Source: Halosimplex halophilum (GTDB lineage Archaea; Halobacteriota; Halobacteria; Halobacteriales; Haloarculaceae). From it: a stretch of DNA of 64,000 bases. This document shows, piece after piece, positions 19,931-34,033 of the stretch (within the stretch, counting starts at the first letter, position 1; each line of letters begins with the position of its first letter). The DNA lies in NCBI RefSeq assembly GCF_004698125.1, contig NZ_ML214297.1, positions 1,116,001-1,180,000 of the forward strand, given 5' to 3'. Position numbers and translations under genes: made by a program. The notes beneath the pieces are model-generated. The model was given only the letters and a program-made list of their open reading frames with translations. It ran no database searches and was not told the DNA's origin.

Positions 19931-20040
19931 CGGCGACGGCGGAAAGGCGGCGACGGCGGAAAGGCGGCGACGGCGGAAAGGCGGCGACGGCGGAAAGGCG
20001 GCGACGGCGGAAAGGCGGCGACGGCGGAAAGGCGGCGACG
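19931..20040. repeat. 17-bp tandem repeat array
   Basis: Six perfect head-to-tail copies of a 17-bp unit (GTCGCCGCCTTTCCGCC on the reverse strand) run from 19938 to 20039, with a partial copy before them. The array begins three bases after the stop codon of the oxidoreductase gene at 20044, so it forms the 3' UTR of that gene or the end of its transcript. Seventeen is not a multiple of three, so the array is not selected as coding sequence. There are no spacers, so it is not a CRISPR. Confidence 0.9.
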
Positions 20041-20043
20041 GAG

Positions 20044-22238: not shown

Positions 22239-23807
22239 TCAGTCGGCATCGGACGGGTTCGTCTCCGCGGCCGAGAGCGCGGTCACGACCGTCGACCGCC
22301 ACTCCTCGATGCTCTCGACGTCGTCGTCGAGCCGCGACACGTCTGACTCGACCGCCTCGACGGCGTCGCTGAGTTCGGCCCGCGTCTCCGAAAGCCCCGC
22401 GTCGAGCTCCTCGACCGACGCCGACAGCTCGTCTACCGACTCCATCTCCTCGTCCAGGTCGTCGAGTTCGGACTCCACGGCGGCCAGCCGGTCGTCGAGG
22501 CGGGACTGGGCCGCCTCGACCGCCTCGACGCGCCGGGCCACGTCCTCCGTCCGCGCCTCGACCCGCTGGAGGTCCTCGCGGACCTCGGCGAGGAGCCGCT
22601 CGGCCGTGCCCTCGTCGTCGAGGAACGCCTCCAGCGCGTCGACGTACGCGTCGAGTTCGCCGATGCGCGTCATGCAGTGGTCGAGCTTCGCCTCGACCGT
22701 CCCCGAGGTGTCCGGCGTCAGGTGCCGGCGGAGCGTCGCCACCGTCTGCGCCGAGGCCTCGTCGCGCCGGAGCTCCGCCGCGACACGGTCCGCGACCGAT
22801 TCCGCCCCGGCGACGCCGTCCGGCTCATCGTCGCCGCCACTTCCGTTCGGCTCGTCCTCGCCAGCGTTCCCGTCCGACCGGTCGCCGCCGACGCTCCCGT
22901 CCGACCGGTCGCCGCCGACGCTCCCGTCCGACCGGTCGTCGCCGACGCTCCCGTCCGACCGGTCGTCGCCGGGGGCCGCGTCTGGCCACTCCTCGTCGGT
23001 GGTGGCCCCGTCCTGCTGGTCGTCCCCGGTGGTAGCGCTCTCCGACTGGTCGTCGTCCGCGACAGTGCCGTCCGACTGGCCGTCGACGGCGGTAGCGCCG
23101 TCCGGCTGGTCGTCGGTGACGGCCGCGGACGGCGCCGCAGATCCGCCCGTCTCCCGGGCCGCGCTCCCGCCGCGGTAGAGGACGGACTCCTCGTCGTCCC
23201 CGTCCGTCGACCCGTTCGGTCCGCCCGCCTCTGTCGGCTCCGTCCGTCCGTCACCGCCCGTCGGTTCGGCCCGTTCGTCCCGCTCCGTTCGGTCGCCCTG
23301 TTCGCCCCGGTCGTTCGGATCGTCCTCGGTCATCGTATCGTTCGAATCGCCCCAATCCCCGTCCCTCGGACTGTTCTGTCGGTCCGGGTCCGGGGAGTCG
23401 TCGCCGACGGACAGCTCAAGTCGCCCGTCGCCGACCGTCCGCCACTCGTCGGGGCCGACCGCGTCGAGGTCGCCGCTCCGCGCGACTCGCACCGTCGGCT
23501 CGTCCAGACACGCCGACAGCTCGGCGGCGTCGGCGTCGGTGATCCCGTAGAGCGTCGAGACCGTCTCGCCCGCGTCGACGACGTTCTCGTAGACTATCCG
23601 ACCCTCACCCGCCACGGACCAGTGCCGGTACCCTTCGTCCGCGTGGAATCCCACGGCGGTCGCGTCCACGCCCTGTGGGAGCGACTCGACGAGCCGGACG
23701 GCGACCGGACCGTCCCCGTACGCCGTCAGCCGGATCCTGACGGACGGATACTTGTACTCGTCCGCGTCGAGCCGCTTCGAGACCGCCAGAGAGAGGTCGT
23801 CTTGCAT
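22239..23807 (-). CDS. Modular protein: beta domain, acidic repeat linker, C-terminal coiled coil
   Basis: 522 residues in three parts. Residues 1-135 are beta-rich (SVRIRLTAYGDGPVAVRLVE; YRHWSVAGEGRIVYENVV), like the small conserved domains found in haloarchaeal DUF11-type proteins. Residues 135-330 are low-complexity acidic sequence with Asp/Gly/Ser/Thr/Gln, including four near-identical 9-residue units (GDRSDGSVG). Residues 335-515 form a long coiled coil (RVEAVEAAQSRLDDRLAAVE; SVDELSASVEELDAGLSETR). There is no signal peptide or TM helix, so it is probably cytoplasmic. A scaffold or gas-vesicle/cytoskeleton-like role would be guesswork. Confidence 0.75.
   Translation of the reverse strand: MQDDLSLAVSKRLDADEYKYPSVRIRLTAYGDGPVAVRLVESLPQGVDATAVGFHADEGYRHWSVAGEGRIVYENVVDAGETVSTLYGITDADAAELSACLDEPTVRVARSGDLDAVGPDEWRTVGDGRLELSVGDDSPDPDRQNSPRDGDWGDSNDTMTEDDPNDRGEQGDRTERDERAEPTGGDGRTEPTEAGGPNGSTDGDDEESVLYRGGSAARETGGSAAPSAAVTDDQPDGATAVDGQSDGTVADDDQSESATTGDDQQDGATTDEEWPDAAPGDDRSDGSVGDDRSDGSVGGDRSDGSVGGDRSDGNAGEDEPNGSGGDDEPDGVAGAESVADRVAAELRRDEASAQTVATLRRHLTPDTSGTVEAKLDHCMTRIGELDAYVDALEAFLDDEGTAERLLAEVREDLQRVEARTEDVARRVEAVEAAQSRLDDRLAAVESELDDLDEEMESVDELSASVEELDAGLSETRAELSDAVEAVESDVSRLDDDVESIEEWRSTVVTALSAAETNPSDAD
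22864..22971. repeat. 27-bp tandem repeat inside the coiled-coil protein gene
   Basis: Four consecutive 27-bp units with few mismatches, start ACGCTCCCG on the plus strand, encode the 9-residue repeat GDRSDGSVG of the acidic linker on the reverse strand. The period is a multiple of three and keeps the frame, as expected for slippage in a disordered linker. Confidence 0.85.
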
Positions 23808-26837: not shown

Positions 26838-27563
26838 ATGAACCCGAGCCGCGTCGACTCCCTGGTCGACCTGACCTACGGGCTGCTTATCGCGGTGTCC
26901 GTGGGGCTCATCGTCGTCGCCGACAACGCCGTCGGGCTGGCGTTCGGCTTCGGCGTCCTGCTGTCGTATCTCATCCACGTCGTCTGGAAGATGGCCCGGT
27001 TCGACCCCGACTGGATGACCACCGCGGTCAAGGAGACCGTCGAGGAGACGGTCGACGAGACGGTCGAGGAGAAGGTCGGCGAAACGGTCGAGAAATCAGT
27101 CGAGGAGACCGTCGGCGACACGGTGGAACAGACGGTCGGCGAGACGGTCGACGAAACCGTCAGCGAAGCCGTCGAAGCGAAGGTCGACGAGACGGTCAGC
27201 GAGACGGTCGAGGAAACCGTCGGCGAAACGGTCGAGGAGACCGTCGAGAAGTCCGTCGAAGAGACCGTCGAGAAGTCCGTCGAGGAGAAAGTCGGAGAGA
27301 CGGTCGAGAAGACCGTCGAAGAAACAGTCGGCGAAACGGTCGAGGAGACTGTCGAGGATACCGTCGAGGAGACTGTCGAAGATACCGTCGAGGAGACTGT
27401 CGAAGATACCGTCGAGGAGACTGTCGAAGATACCGTCGAGGAGACTGTCGAAGATACCGTCGAGGAGACGCTGGAAGAACAGCTGGAGGACGGCGAGACC
27501 GACGCCGACGGAACCGAGGCCGACGAAACTGACGACGACGAACCCGACGGCGAGGGGAACTGA
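26838..27563 (+). CDS. Membrane-anchored protein with 39 continuous tetrad repeats
   Basis: 241 residues. Two hydrophobic helices (about 10-27 and 31-50) anchor it. From residue 64 to 216 a hydrophobic residue (Val, finally Leu) occurs at every fourth position without a break: 39 tetrads of the form T-V-E-E with Gly, Asp, Lys, Ser and Gln variants. An acidic tail closes the protein. Strict spacing of 4.0 is outside the usual coiled-coil periods (3.5, 3.67), so this would be a strongly right-handed helix bundle or something different. Its stop overlaps the start of the PiT permease gene (TGATG), suggesting a partner role for phosphate uptake. I know no such family. Confidence 0.8.
   Translation: MNPSRVDSLVDLTYGLLIAVSVGLIVVADNAVGLAFGFGVLLSYLIHVVWKMARFDPDWMTTAVKETVEETVDETVEEKVGETVEKSVEETVGDTVEQTVGETVDETVSEAVEAKVDETVSETVEETVGETVEETVEKSVEETVEKSVEEKVGETVEKTVEETVGETVEETVEDTVEETVEDTVEETVEDTVEETVEDTVEETVEDTVEETLEEQLEDGETDADGTEADETDDDEPDGEGN
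27339..27458 (+). repeat. 24-bp tandem repeat inside the tetrad-repeat gene
   Basis: Five consecutive 24-bp units, each beginning GTCGAGGAGACTGTCGA, encode the eight-residue repeat VEETVEDT. Copies 2-5 are identical, while the first differs at one base. The upstream tetrads are more diverged, which suggests that the 3' end of the array expanded recently. Confidence 0.9.
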
Positions 27564-28741
27564 TGGTCGACCCGCTCCTCGTCGTCGGCGTACTCGTCTC
27601 GATGTTCGTCGCCTACAACATCGGCGGGTCGACGACCGGTCCGGCGTTCGGGCCGGCCGTGGGCGCCGACGCCATCTCGAAGACGGCGGCGGCGGCGCTG
27701 ATGGGCGTGTTCTTCTTCGTGGGCGCCTGGACGATCGGCCGCAACGTCGTGACGAAGCTCGGGACGGAGCTGGTCACCGACCCCGCCGTGTTCACGCTCG
27801 AATCGTCGATCGCCGTCCTGTTTTTCATCGGGGTCGCGCTGCTGGTCGGGAACGTCTTCGGCGTCCCGGCCTCGACCTCGATGACCGCGGTCGGCGCGAT
27901 CGCCGGCCTCGCGTTCGCCGGCGGCGTGCTCGACATGGCCGTCATGGGGGAGATCGTCACCTGGTGGATCGTCTCGCCGATCATCGGCTTCTGGGTCTCG
28001 CTGATCGTCGGCCGGTACTTCTACGCCCGGCTCAACCGGCTGGTGGCGATGGAGCGCAGCGAGGGGCCGCTGCTGGACGTCGACCGCTCCGGGCTCGTCC
28101 CGTCGGTGAGCGTCCACCGGACGACCAACCGTCGCGAGCTGGTCGGGACGGTCACGGTCGTCGCGATCGGCTGTCTGATGGCCTTCAGCTCCGGCACGTC
28201 CAACATCGCCAACGCCGTCGCGCCGCTGGTCGGGAGCGACGCGCTGGCGATGGATCCCGCGATCATCCTGGGCGGGGTCGCCGTCACCATCGGCGCGTTC
28301 ACCATCGCGCGGCGGACCCTGGAGACGATGGGCAGCGACATCACGGAGCTGCCGCTGACGGCCGCGATCGTCGTCGCAACGGTCAGCTCGGCGCTGGTCG
28401 TCTTCCTCTCGGCGCTGGGTATCCCCGCGAGTTTCGTCATCATCGCGACGGTGAGCATCATCGGTCTCGGGTGGGGCCGGGCGACCCGCCCGGTGACCGT
28501 CCCGGAGGCCGTCTCCGCTGAGGAGACCCCGCCGGTCACCGTCGACGCGCTGGCCGCCGACGAACCCGGCGAGGAGCTGCCCCCCATCGGCGAGGAGGAC
28601 TCCGAGGACATCCCCGAACCCGGCGACCTGTTCAACCCCGCGACGACCGCCCGCGTCGTCCTGATGCAGAACGTCGTGCCGGCCATCGCGACGCTGGGCG
28701 CGTACCTCACCTTCCGGTTCGTCCCGGTGTTCGGGTTCTGA
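27563..28741 (+). CDS. PiT-family inorganic phosphate transporter
   Basis: 392 residues with about ten hydrophobic helices. The duplicated PiT signatures are clear: YNIGGSTTGPAFGPAVGADA near residues 18-37 and SSGTSNIANAVAPLVGSDAL near 210-229. The central hydrophilic loop (about 165-195) and an acidic stretch near residues 315-355 lie between helices. It should import phosphate (or possibly a similar oxyanion) with H+ or Na+. Bacterial and archaeal PiT genes are often next to a DUF47 PhoU-like protein; here the overlapping upstream gene encodes the tetrad-repeat protein instead. Confidence 0.92.
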   Translation: MVDPLLVVGVLVSMFVAYNIGGSTTGPAFGPAVGADAISKTAAAALMGVFFFVGAWTIGRNVVTKLGTELVTDPAVFTLESSIAVLFFIGVALLVGNVFGVPASTSMTAVGAIAGLAFAGGVLDMAVMGEIVTWWIVSPIIGFWVSLIVGRYFYARLNRLVAMERSEGPLLDVDRSGLVPSVSVHRTTNRRELVGTVTVVAIGCLMAFSSGTSNIANAVAPLVGSDALAMDPAIILGGVAVTIGAFTIARRTLETMGSDITELPLTAAIVVATVSSALVVFLSALGIPASFVIIATVSIIGLGWGRATRPVTVPEAVSAEETPPVTVDALAADEPGEELPPIGEEDSEDIPEPGDLFNPATTARVVLMQNVVPAIATLGAYLTFRFVPVFGF

Positions 28742-32401: not shown

Positions 32402-34033
32402 TCAGACCTCGTCGGCGGCGAGCACCCGGACGTTGACCGGCTGTTTGACGAACTCGCCCTCCTCGCGGGCGACGACGAGGTCGACGCCGCGCTGGGCCGC
32501 CACGTCGAGGACGCGCTGGGGGAGTTCGCCGTCGAGGACGACCGACGCCGGGACCGTCTCGGCGCCCTCGACGAGGTCGAACGCCTCGTCGGCGTCGCCC
32601 TCGGCGATCGTGTCGTACGCGGCGTCGAGGAGCCGCACGCGACCCGTTCCCTCGTCGACGACCGCCTCGACGTGGCTCGCGAGCGTGTCCGGGGGCGACC
32701 CGGCCGGCGACTCCACTTCCGATGGCGACGCCTCTTCGGTCGTCCCGTCGCCCGCCTCGGCGGGCGGTTCCTCGGCATCGTTCGTCCCCTCGGTCGCCCC
32801 GTCGGCCGTCTCGGCGGCCGACGCCTCGGCGTCTGCCGCCCCGACGGACGGCTTCCCGGCGTCCGCCGTCCCGGGGGCACCGTCCGGCTCGTCACCCCCG
32901 GGCTCGCCGTCGGAGTCGGTGCCGGCGGGATCGACGGCGGCGTCGGTACCGGGACCGTCGGCGTTGTCGGTACCGGGACCGTCGGCGGTGTCCGCCCGCG
33001 CTCCCGTCTCGTGGGACGGGGGCGCCGCCTCGACGGCGGAGTCGTCGGGGTCCGTCGGCGACTCGGGGTCCGTCGGCGACTCGGGGTCCGTCGGCGACTC
33101 GGGGTCCGTCGGCGACTCGGGGTCGGCCGTCCCGGTGTCGCCGTCCGGCGGCGAGGGCTGGGCGGAGCCGTCGGTGGCGGCCAGCCCCGTCGTCTCGTCG
33201 GTCGCTCCCTCGGCCATCTCGGACGCGTCGTCGGTCGGGACCGCCTCGAAGGGCACCTTGTCGCGCAGCGCGTCCATGACCGCGCTCCGCGGGAGGTCCT
33301 CGACGGACCGGCCGGTCGGGGCGAGCGCGACGTAGTCGATGTCGCCGACCTGCGACAGCTCCTTCAGGATGAGGTCGCCCCCGCGGTCGCCGTCGAGGAA
33401 CGCCGTCACGGTCCGCTCCTCGGTCAGTTCCGCGACGGCGTCGGGCACGTCGGTCCCCTCGACCGCGATGGCGTTCTTGATACCGTACTTGAGCAGCTGG
33501 AGCACGTCGGCCCGGCCCTCGACGACGATGACGGCGTCGCTGTCGGCGACGCGCGGGCCGGCCGGCATACCCGCGAACTCGGTCGCGTCCTCGACGCGGA
33601 CGCTCCGCCGGACCTCCTCGACCAGGTCCTCGCTGGACATCGTGGTCGCGTCGAACTCCGCGAGCAGCTCCTTGGCGCGCTCGACGACGCGGCGCCGTTT
33701 CGCGGAGCGCACGTCCTCGATGTCGCGTATCTCGACGTCGGCCGTCGACGGGCCGACGCGCTCGATGCTCTCCAGGGCGGCCGCGAGGATCGCCGTCTCG
33801 ACGCGGTCGAGCCCGCTGGCGATGGTTACCTCGCCGAACGAGCTCCCGCGCTCGGACTCGATCTCGACGTCGATGCGGCCGAGCTTGCCCGACTCCTGGA
33901 GGTCGCGGAGGTCGAGCTCGTCGCCGAGCAGGCCTTCGGTCTGTCCGAAGACCGCGCCGACCACGTCACTCCGCTCGACCACCCCGCTGGTCCTGATGTC
34001 CGCGTGGATCAGATACTTGGCTGAATCGTACAT
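32402..34033 (-). CDS. dnaG: Archaeal DnaG (Toprim-domain RNA-associated primase homologue)
   Basis: 543 residues. The start MYDSAKYLIHADIRTSGVVE and the Toprim motifs, E172 in VVEGRADVLQLLKYG and D214/D216 in AFLDGDRGG, match archaeal DnaG. In archaea this protein binds the exosome and can act as a primase in vitro. A low-complexity acidic insert (about 275-455) splits the core from a C-terminal domain (PASVVLDGELPQRVLDVAAQ; KQPVNVRVLAADEV). The insert contains a 6-residue repeat ESPTDP. Divergent from the SSS symporter pair; the DNA between them holds inverted repeats. Confidence 0.94.
   Translation of the reverse strand: MYDSAKYLIHADIRTSGVVERSDVVGAVFGQTEGLLGDELDLRDLQESGKLGRIDVEIESERGSSFGEVTIASGLDRVETAILAAALESIERVGPSTADVEIRDIEDVRSAKRRRVVERAKELLAEFDATTMSSEDLVEEVRRSVRVEDATEFAGMPAGPRVADSDAVIVVEGRADVLQLLKYGIKNAIAVEGTDVPDAVAELTEERTVTAFLDGDRGGDLILKELSQVGDIDYVALAPTGRSVEDLPRSAVMDALRDKVPFEAVPTDDASEMAEGATDETTGLAATDGSAQPSPPDGDTGTADPESPTDPESPTDPESPTDPESPTDPDDSAVEAAPPSHETGARADTADGPGTDNADGPGTDAAVDPAGTDSDGEPGGDEPDGAPGTADAGKPSVGAADAEASAAETADGATEGTNDAEEPPAEAGDGTTEEASPSEVESPAGSPPDTLASHVEAVVDEGTGRVRLLDAAYDTIAEGDADEAFDLVEGAETVPASVVLDGELPQRVLDVAAQRGVDLVVAREEGEFVKQPVNVRVLAADEV
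33045..33116 (-). repeat. 18-bp tandem repeat in dnaG linker
   Basis: Four perfect 18-bp units, TCGGGGTCCGTCGGCGAC on the plus strand, encode the repeated hexapeptide ESPTDP in the acidic linker of DnaG. The frame is kept, and the linker is probably disordered. Confidence 0.88.

Follow-up and report, generated by a model that had tools for sequence, protein, structure and literature searches.

A haloarchaeal protein family with a strict four-residue hydrophobic period, recurrently encoded next to divergent PiT-type permeases

The window, a stretch of 64,000 nucleotides from Halosimplex halophilum (contig NZ_ML214297.1, positions 1,116,001 to 1,180,000), contains two overlapping genes on the forward strand, one for a protein that consists largely of four-residue repeats and the other for a permease of the PiT superfamily. 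The features of this pair, in window coordinates, are as follows.

26838..27563, + strand: gene of the tetrad-repeat membrane protein; the translation gives 241 amino acids plus the stop (P0001)
26844..26999, + strand: predicted two-helix membrane hairpin, residues 3-54 (model helices 3-27 and 30-54)
26985..27020, + strand: juxtamembrane motif WKMxRFDPxWMT, residues 50-61, the family signature; W50, K51, M52, D56, P57, W59 and M60 are invariant in the alignment
27027..27485, + strand: 39 uninterrupted tetrads, residues 64-216, consensus T-V-E-E, period exactly 4.0 (translation, spacing and codon analysis)
27348..27467, + strand: recently expanded part of the DNA, five near-identical 24-bp units encoding TVED TVEE (tandem-repeat period 24, unit list)
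27486..27560, + strand: acidic C-terminal tail, 25 amino acids, 14 D/E and zero K/R (residue count)
27561..27565, + strand: TGATG stop/start overlap, with TGA at 27561-27563 and ATG at 27563-27565 (sequence)
27563..28741, + strand: PiT-superfamily permease, 392 amino acids (P0002); PF01384 at 140.8 bits (cut-off 33.7), TmPiT 6l85 at E=1e-11
27623..27646, + strand: first PiT signature, which reads GGSTTGPA instead of GANDVANA (D to T), from the alignment to 6l85
28193..28216, + strand: second PiT signature, which reads GTSNIANA instead of GANDVANA (D to N, and the preceding H to S), from the same alignment

The start of the tetrad-repeat gene at 26838 is backed by homologues with the same Met/Val beginning, unlike the longer mechanical ORF from 26655. 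The first-pass annotation of this DNA had described two N-terminal membrane helices, an acidic tail, 39 tetrads with a hydrophobic residue at exactly every fourth position between residues 64 and 216, and a stop codon overlapping the permease start, and all of these are borne out by the translation, the charge counts (14 acidic and no basic residues in the tail) and the coordinates. The distribution of charge around membrane helices is indicative of the cytoplasmic side (the positive-inside rule). Averaged over 123 distinct N-termini, K+R residues number 1.08 ahead of the first helix, 0.09 between the helices and 1.98 beyond the second, which, under this rule, points to an N-in/C-in hairpin, so that both ends of the protein and the tetrad array would be cytoplasmic.

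The hydrophobic period of the array is strict. Every fourth position from V64 to L216 is occupied by valine (37 cases) or leucine (2 cases), and M60 lengthens the run from 39 to 40. Chance and composition can be ruled out as the source of this pattern because 2000 shuffled versions of the sequence had a longest period-4 run of 3.6 on average and never of more than 9; the spectral power at 4.0 is 596 compared with a shuffle maximum of 83, and is below 3 at periods 3.5-3.67. The same spacing prevails throughout the family: among 4259 hydrophobic spacings in 126 distinct homologues, 3977 equal 4, 28 equal 8 and 187 equal 3, so that 94% are 4 or 8, and in 44 of these homologues, no other spacings occur; many of the spacing-3 cases lie in heptad-like segments of a paralogous clade. 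The length of the array is no family constant, with anything between about 10 and 65 hydrophobic positions and great differences between close relatives, but the register is strict even in the longest array of 65 positions. The longest arrays, with 57-65 positions in strict register, are found in loci L082 (395 amino acids), L114, L112, L137 and L146. Because array length changes so fast, a molecular ruler is disfavored, and a length-tolerant rod or multivalent surface appears to be the better description.

Comparison of adjacent 12-bp units in 108 family members shows what holds the register in place. At the V position, there are 1082 synonymous and 286 nonsynonymous differences (ratio 0.26), compared with ratios of 1.9, 7.3 and 3.1 at the other three positions of the tetrad. 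Because the V codons differ mainly synonymously, it is selection at the protein level that maintains the register, that is, the 4.0 period is subject to purifying selection at the V position, even as the arrays grow and shrink by tandem duplication. Tandem repeats also occur elsewhere in the window: a 17-bp unit in 6.5 copies of 100% identity at 19931-20041, which is apparently intergenic and whose unit is not a multiple of three, and two near-perfect repeats with units that are multiples of three, one of 27 bp x 3.9 at 22868-22971 and one of 18 bp x 4.4 at 33045-33124.

The family is defined by the first 68 residues, in which D7, D11, Y14, G15, G33, A35, F36, G39 and H47 are invariant along with the seven residues of the juxtamembrane motif. 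This N-terminal domain was detected in 271 of 391 Halobacteria genomes, representing 70 of the 86 surveyed genera. Of 294 genomes surveyed across the phylum, 41 were positive, and all of these belonged to the order of the window's own genome. The family carries no Pfam or NCBIfam name: none of the profiles in these collections matched the tetrad protein above the curated cut-offs, and the matches of the array to CdrL_M, DUF445, MarP and others fall below the cut-off and look composition-driven. Likewise, the N-terminal domain had no matches in the PDB, and the PDB matches to the array were discarded as weak and compositional; among the papers searched, none dealt with a four-residue coiled-coil repeat or with this haloarchaeal family. 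Close relatives with named records come from Halosimplex pelagicum and other Halosimplex. A tree built from the short alignment, which is weakly resolved, splits the family into two clades, that of the window protein and the paralogous one, which has a conserved heptad-like C-terminus with RRPREDE and a final motif like ERVDRRPREDEVEEL. The host genome itself encodes a paralogue (G000:C1:2010791-2010994; locus L089, 4055-4495, minus strand) convergent with a PiT-UspA pair, and this is the only other tetrad protein found there; a weak match at locus L216 proved to be an unrelated DTTVDDTAD stretch.

The neighborhood of the tetrad genes is far from random. Of 123 distinct loci, 90 have a PF01384-type gene no more than 1.1 kb away, whereas, given the eight PF01384 genes in the 4.47 Mb host genome, a PiT neighbor would be expected by chance in roughly 1% of loci. 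The arrangement varies: the PiT gene is directly downstream on the same strand in 46 of these 90 loci, divergent in 13, convergent in 13 (usually with a UspA-like gene in between), on both sides in 17, and upstream on the same strand in 1. Stop/start overlaps (offset 0, -3 or -7) occur in 29 of 53 tandem neighbor pairs. In the remaining 33 loci, there is no PiT gene nearby, and no consistent alternative neighbor was found for them across genera. In several Natrialbaceae loci (including L160, L164, L171, L177 and L183), PiT genes flank the tetrad gene on both sides, accompanied by UspA, and these clusters also include a large permease that, by appearance, resembles SLC13 with TrkA-C domains. 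Near-identical N-termini and PiT neighbors recur across Haloarculaceae, Haloferacaceae, Haladaptataceae, Halorubellaceae and Natronomonadaceae, which suggests that the tandem pair moves or is inherited as a unit.

The association extends to genome content. In a hand tally, the family is present in 54 of the 57 genomes that encode a close homologue of the window PiT (E about 4e-145 or better), compared with 18 of the 89 other genomes (Fisher p=2e-20, uncorrected for kinship), and the three exceptions among the 57 are all incomplete genomes. Genomes G001, G003 and G006 keep both genes but apart from one another; given this genome-wide co-occurrence, the loci that lack a PiT neighbor do not overturn the association. 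Several genera, in turn, combine the tetrad gene with only distant PiT homologues. Thus, the pairing with a PiT gene proposed in the first-pass annotation is real and recurs far above chance, but is looser than the expectation that the tetrad gene always precedes PiT.

The identity of the permease calls for similar caution. Its membership in PF01384 is clear-cut, but phosphate as the substrate, also part of the original description, is doubtful because the aspartates of both signatures are replaced: in human PiT2, the GANDVANA aspartates, together with the histidine preceding the second signature, are critical for phosphate transport (PMC3126765), and the permease lacks the two aspartate-containing signatures on which Na+-dependent phosphate transport depends. 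The term 'phosphate' is therefore a label for this permease rather than a finding. Across the family loci, GGSTTGPA recurs 55 times, and the second motif or a close variant 37 and 21 times; neither signature aspartate is retained in the PiT-superfamily permeases next to the tetrad family, nor is the C-terminal histidine. The other PF01384 paralogues of the host genome that were read (L001, L002 and L004) also lack GANDVANA. Haloarchaeal 'phosphate permeases' with broken signatures may transport something else.

The period of the array does not fit the coiled-coil range. A treatment of alpha/beta coiled coils places the lower limit of coiled-coil periodicity at 3.33 (assumed) and the upper limit at about 3.9 (expected), gives 3.8 as the most extreme value known, and names 4.0 as lying outside the accessible range (PMC4786415). 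The spectral peak of the array at exactly 4.00 is beyond the core periodicity of about 3.33-3.9 expected of coiled coils, in agreement with the initial remark that this period is abnormal, and conventional coiled-coil self-association thus cannot be taken for granted. AlphaFold modeling of monomers predicts helices at residues 57-126 and 134-221 of the window protein, with pLDDT mostly 45-72 (overall pLDDT 62, pTM 0.24), and an all-helical short paralogue with similarly low confidence (pLDDT 61, pTM 0.26). By simple geometry, a period of 4.0 would yield a supercoil pitch of about 39 residues (59 A), compared with 98 residues for heptads and 113 for pentadecads.

Taken together, these observations are best accommodated, at a probability of roughly 0.45, by a membrane-anchored, cytoplasm-facing, self-associating helical rod that would serve as an accessory subunit of a divergent PiT-type anion permease. 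Under this scenario, the N-in/C-in hairpin and the WKMxRFDPxWMT motif would anchor the haloarchaea-specific rod to the membrane on its cytoplasmic side; the tetrad array, which is strongly acidic, would form a mostly helical rod in the cytoplasm; the stripe of one valine in four residues would be selected for burial, most likely via lateral self-association; and the rod would cluster or gate the permease. The 33 loci without a nearby PiT gene, the genera that have only distant PiT homologues, the low confidence of both models and the period beyond the coiled-coil range count against this scenario.

Two alternatives concern the array itself. If the period were a by-product of a DNA minisatellite, duplication of 12-bp and 24-bp units would yield it by default, with the protein unselected; the five near-identical 24-bp units, the TRF periods of 24 and 72 and the quick change of array length would all follow. 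This origin, in its pure form, is barely credible, being largely refuted by the codon analysis, in which the V position changes mainly synonymously and the other positions are free to change; moreover, the array includes 27 distinct 12-mers among 38 units, and the register persists across unit types as divergent as TVEE, EVSK and NVEE. The array could also be an intrinsically flexible acidic polyelectrolyte, a tether or brush that would act as an entropic spacer suited to the high intracellular KCl and would have no defined fold. The strong net charge (61 acidic and 8 basic among 153 residues), the large variation in array length and the low confidence of the models are all compatible with such a spacer, but nothing in a spacer would call for a hydrophobic residue in strictly every fourth place, or for purifying selection at that place only, so that we consider it rather improbable.

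The other alternatives to the accessory rod concern its relationship with the permease. The tetrad protein could be a general membrane scaffold or surface-organizing rod, linked to PiT through a shared regulon that responds to the same anion or stress signal, and not through a physical complex. The 33 loci without a near PiT gene, the divergent and convergent pairs, the UspA-like genes near the tetrad gene in 38 loci and the diversity of the neighboring PiTs, which are of several types (L006-like, L008-like), are in line with such an arrangement, whereas the stop/start overlap, the signs that the tandem pair has been transferred jointly between families and the co-occurrence with one PiT type even when the genes are unlinked argue against it; on balance, it is the strongest rival, though less probable than the accessory rod. 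The tetrad protein had also been suggested to occupy the position of the DUF47 PhoU-like partner of PiT. This suggestion fails here: the host genome has eight PF01384 genes, no PF01865 (DUF47) gene was found in it, and P0001 itself has no PF01865 match, so the tetrad protein does not take the place of a DUF47 partner in a genome that relies on one elsewhere. Functional replacement, whereby a specific cytoplasmic regulator would sense intracellular phosphate or a nucleotide and gate PiT, could be read into the location of the tetrad gene upstream of PiT and the lack of PF01865 in the host genome, with Haloferax volcanii likewise absent from the PF01865 controls. It is nevertheless highly improbable: the sequences are unrelated, only some of the eight PiT genes have a tetrad-family partner, the array has no visible ligand-binding domain, and the permease may not carry phosphate.

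A period of 4.0 has been named inaccessible for coiled coils, yet purifying selection maintains it in this family, which occurs in most haloarchaeal genera, over stretches as long as about 260 residues. It is conceivable, as a more tentative proposition, that the arrays represent an undescribed regular assembly, either a right-handed helical bundle with tight supercoiling or a helix of mixed alpha/pi type, stabilized by high KCl and employed across the haloarchaea to serve an anion permease as an accessory rod anchored in the membrane. A solved structure of the array would directly probe how far helical supercoiling can go or expose another fiber fold.

Among the closest known systems, alpha-helical coiled coils resemble the tetrad family in the predicted helix, the regular hydrophobic core positions and the length of the rods, and some family members change to 3-4 spacing near the C-terminus; the difference lies in the periods, namely, 3.5 for heptads, 3.67 for hendecads, 3.75 for pentadecads and up to 3.8 locally in YadA, compared with the strict 4.0 over up to 65 positions in the tetrad family. 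Single alpha-helix (SAH) domains resemble the array in being long, highly charged predicted helices, but their alternation of acidic and basic residues with i,i+4 ion pairs is missing in the array, where basic residues are too few for an E/K pattern and a valine regularly occupies every fourth position. The DUF47/PhoU_div (PF01865) partners of PiT share with the tetrad protein what would be a cytoplasmic accessory position beside a PiT gene, but are unrelated to it in sequence, and the tetrad protein differs also in its predicted membrane anchor. As for the PiT/CysP transporters, the partner permease exceeds the PF01384 cut-off, and its closest NCBIfam model, that of the CysP-type sulfate permease (NF053884), is matched below the cut-off; it departs from these transporters in the replacement of both GANDVANA aspartates and the C-terminal histidine.
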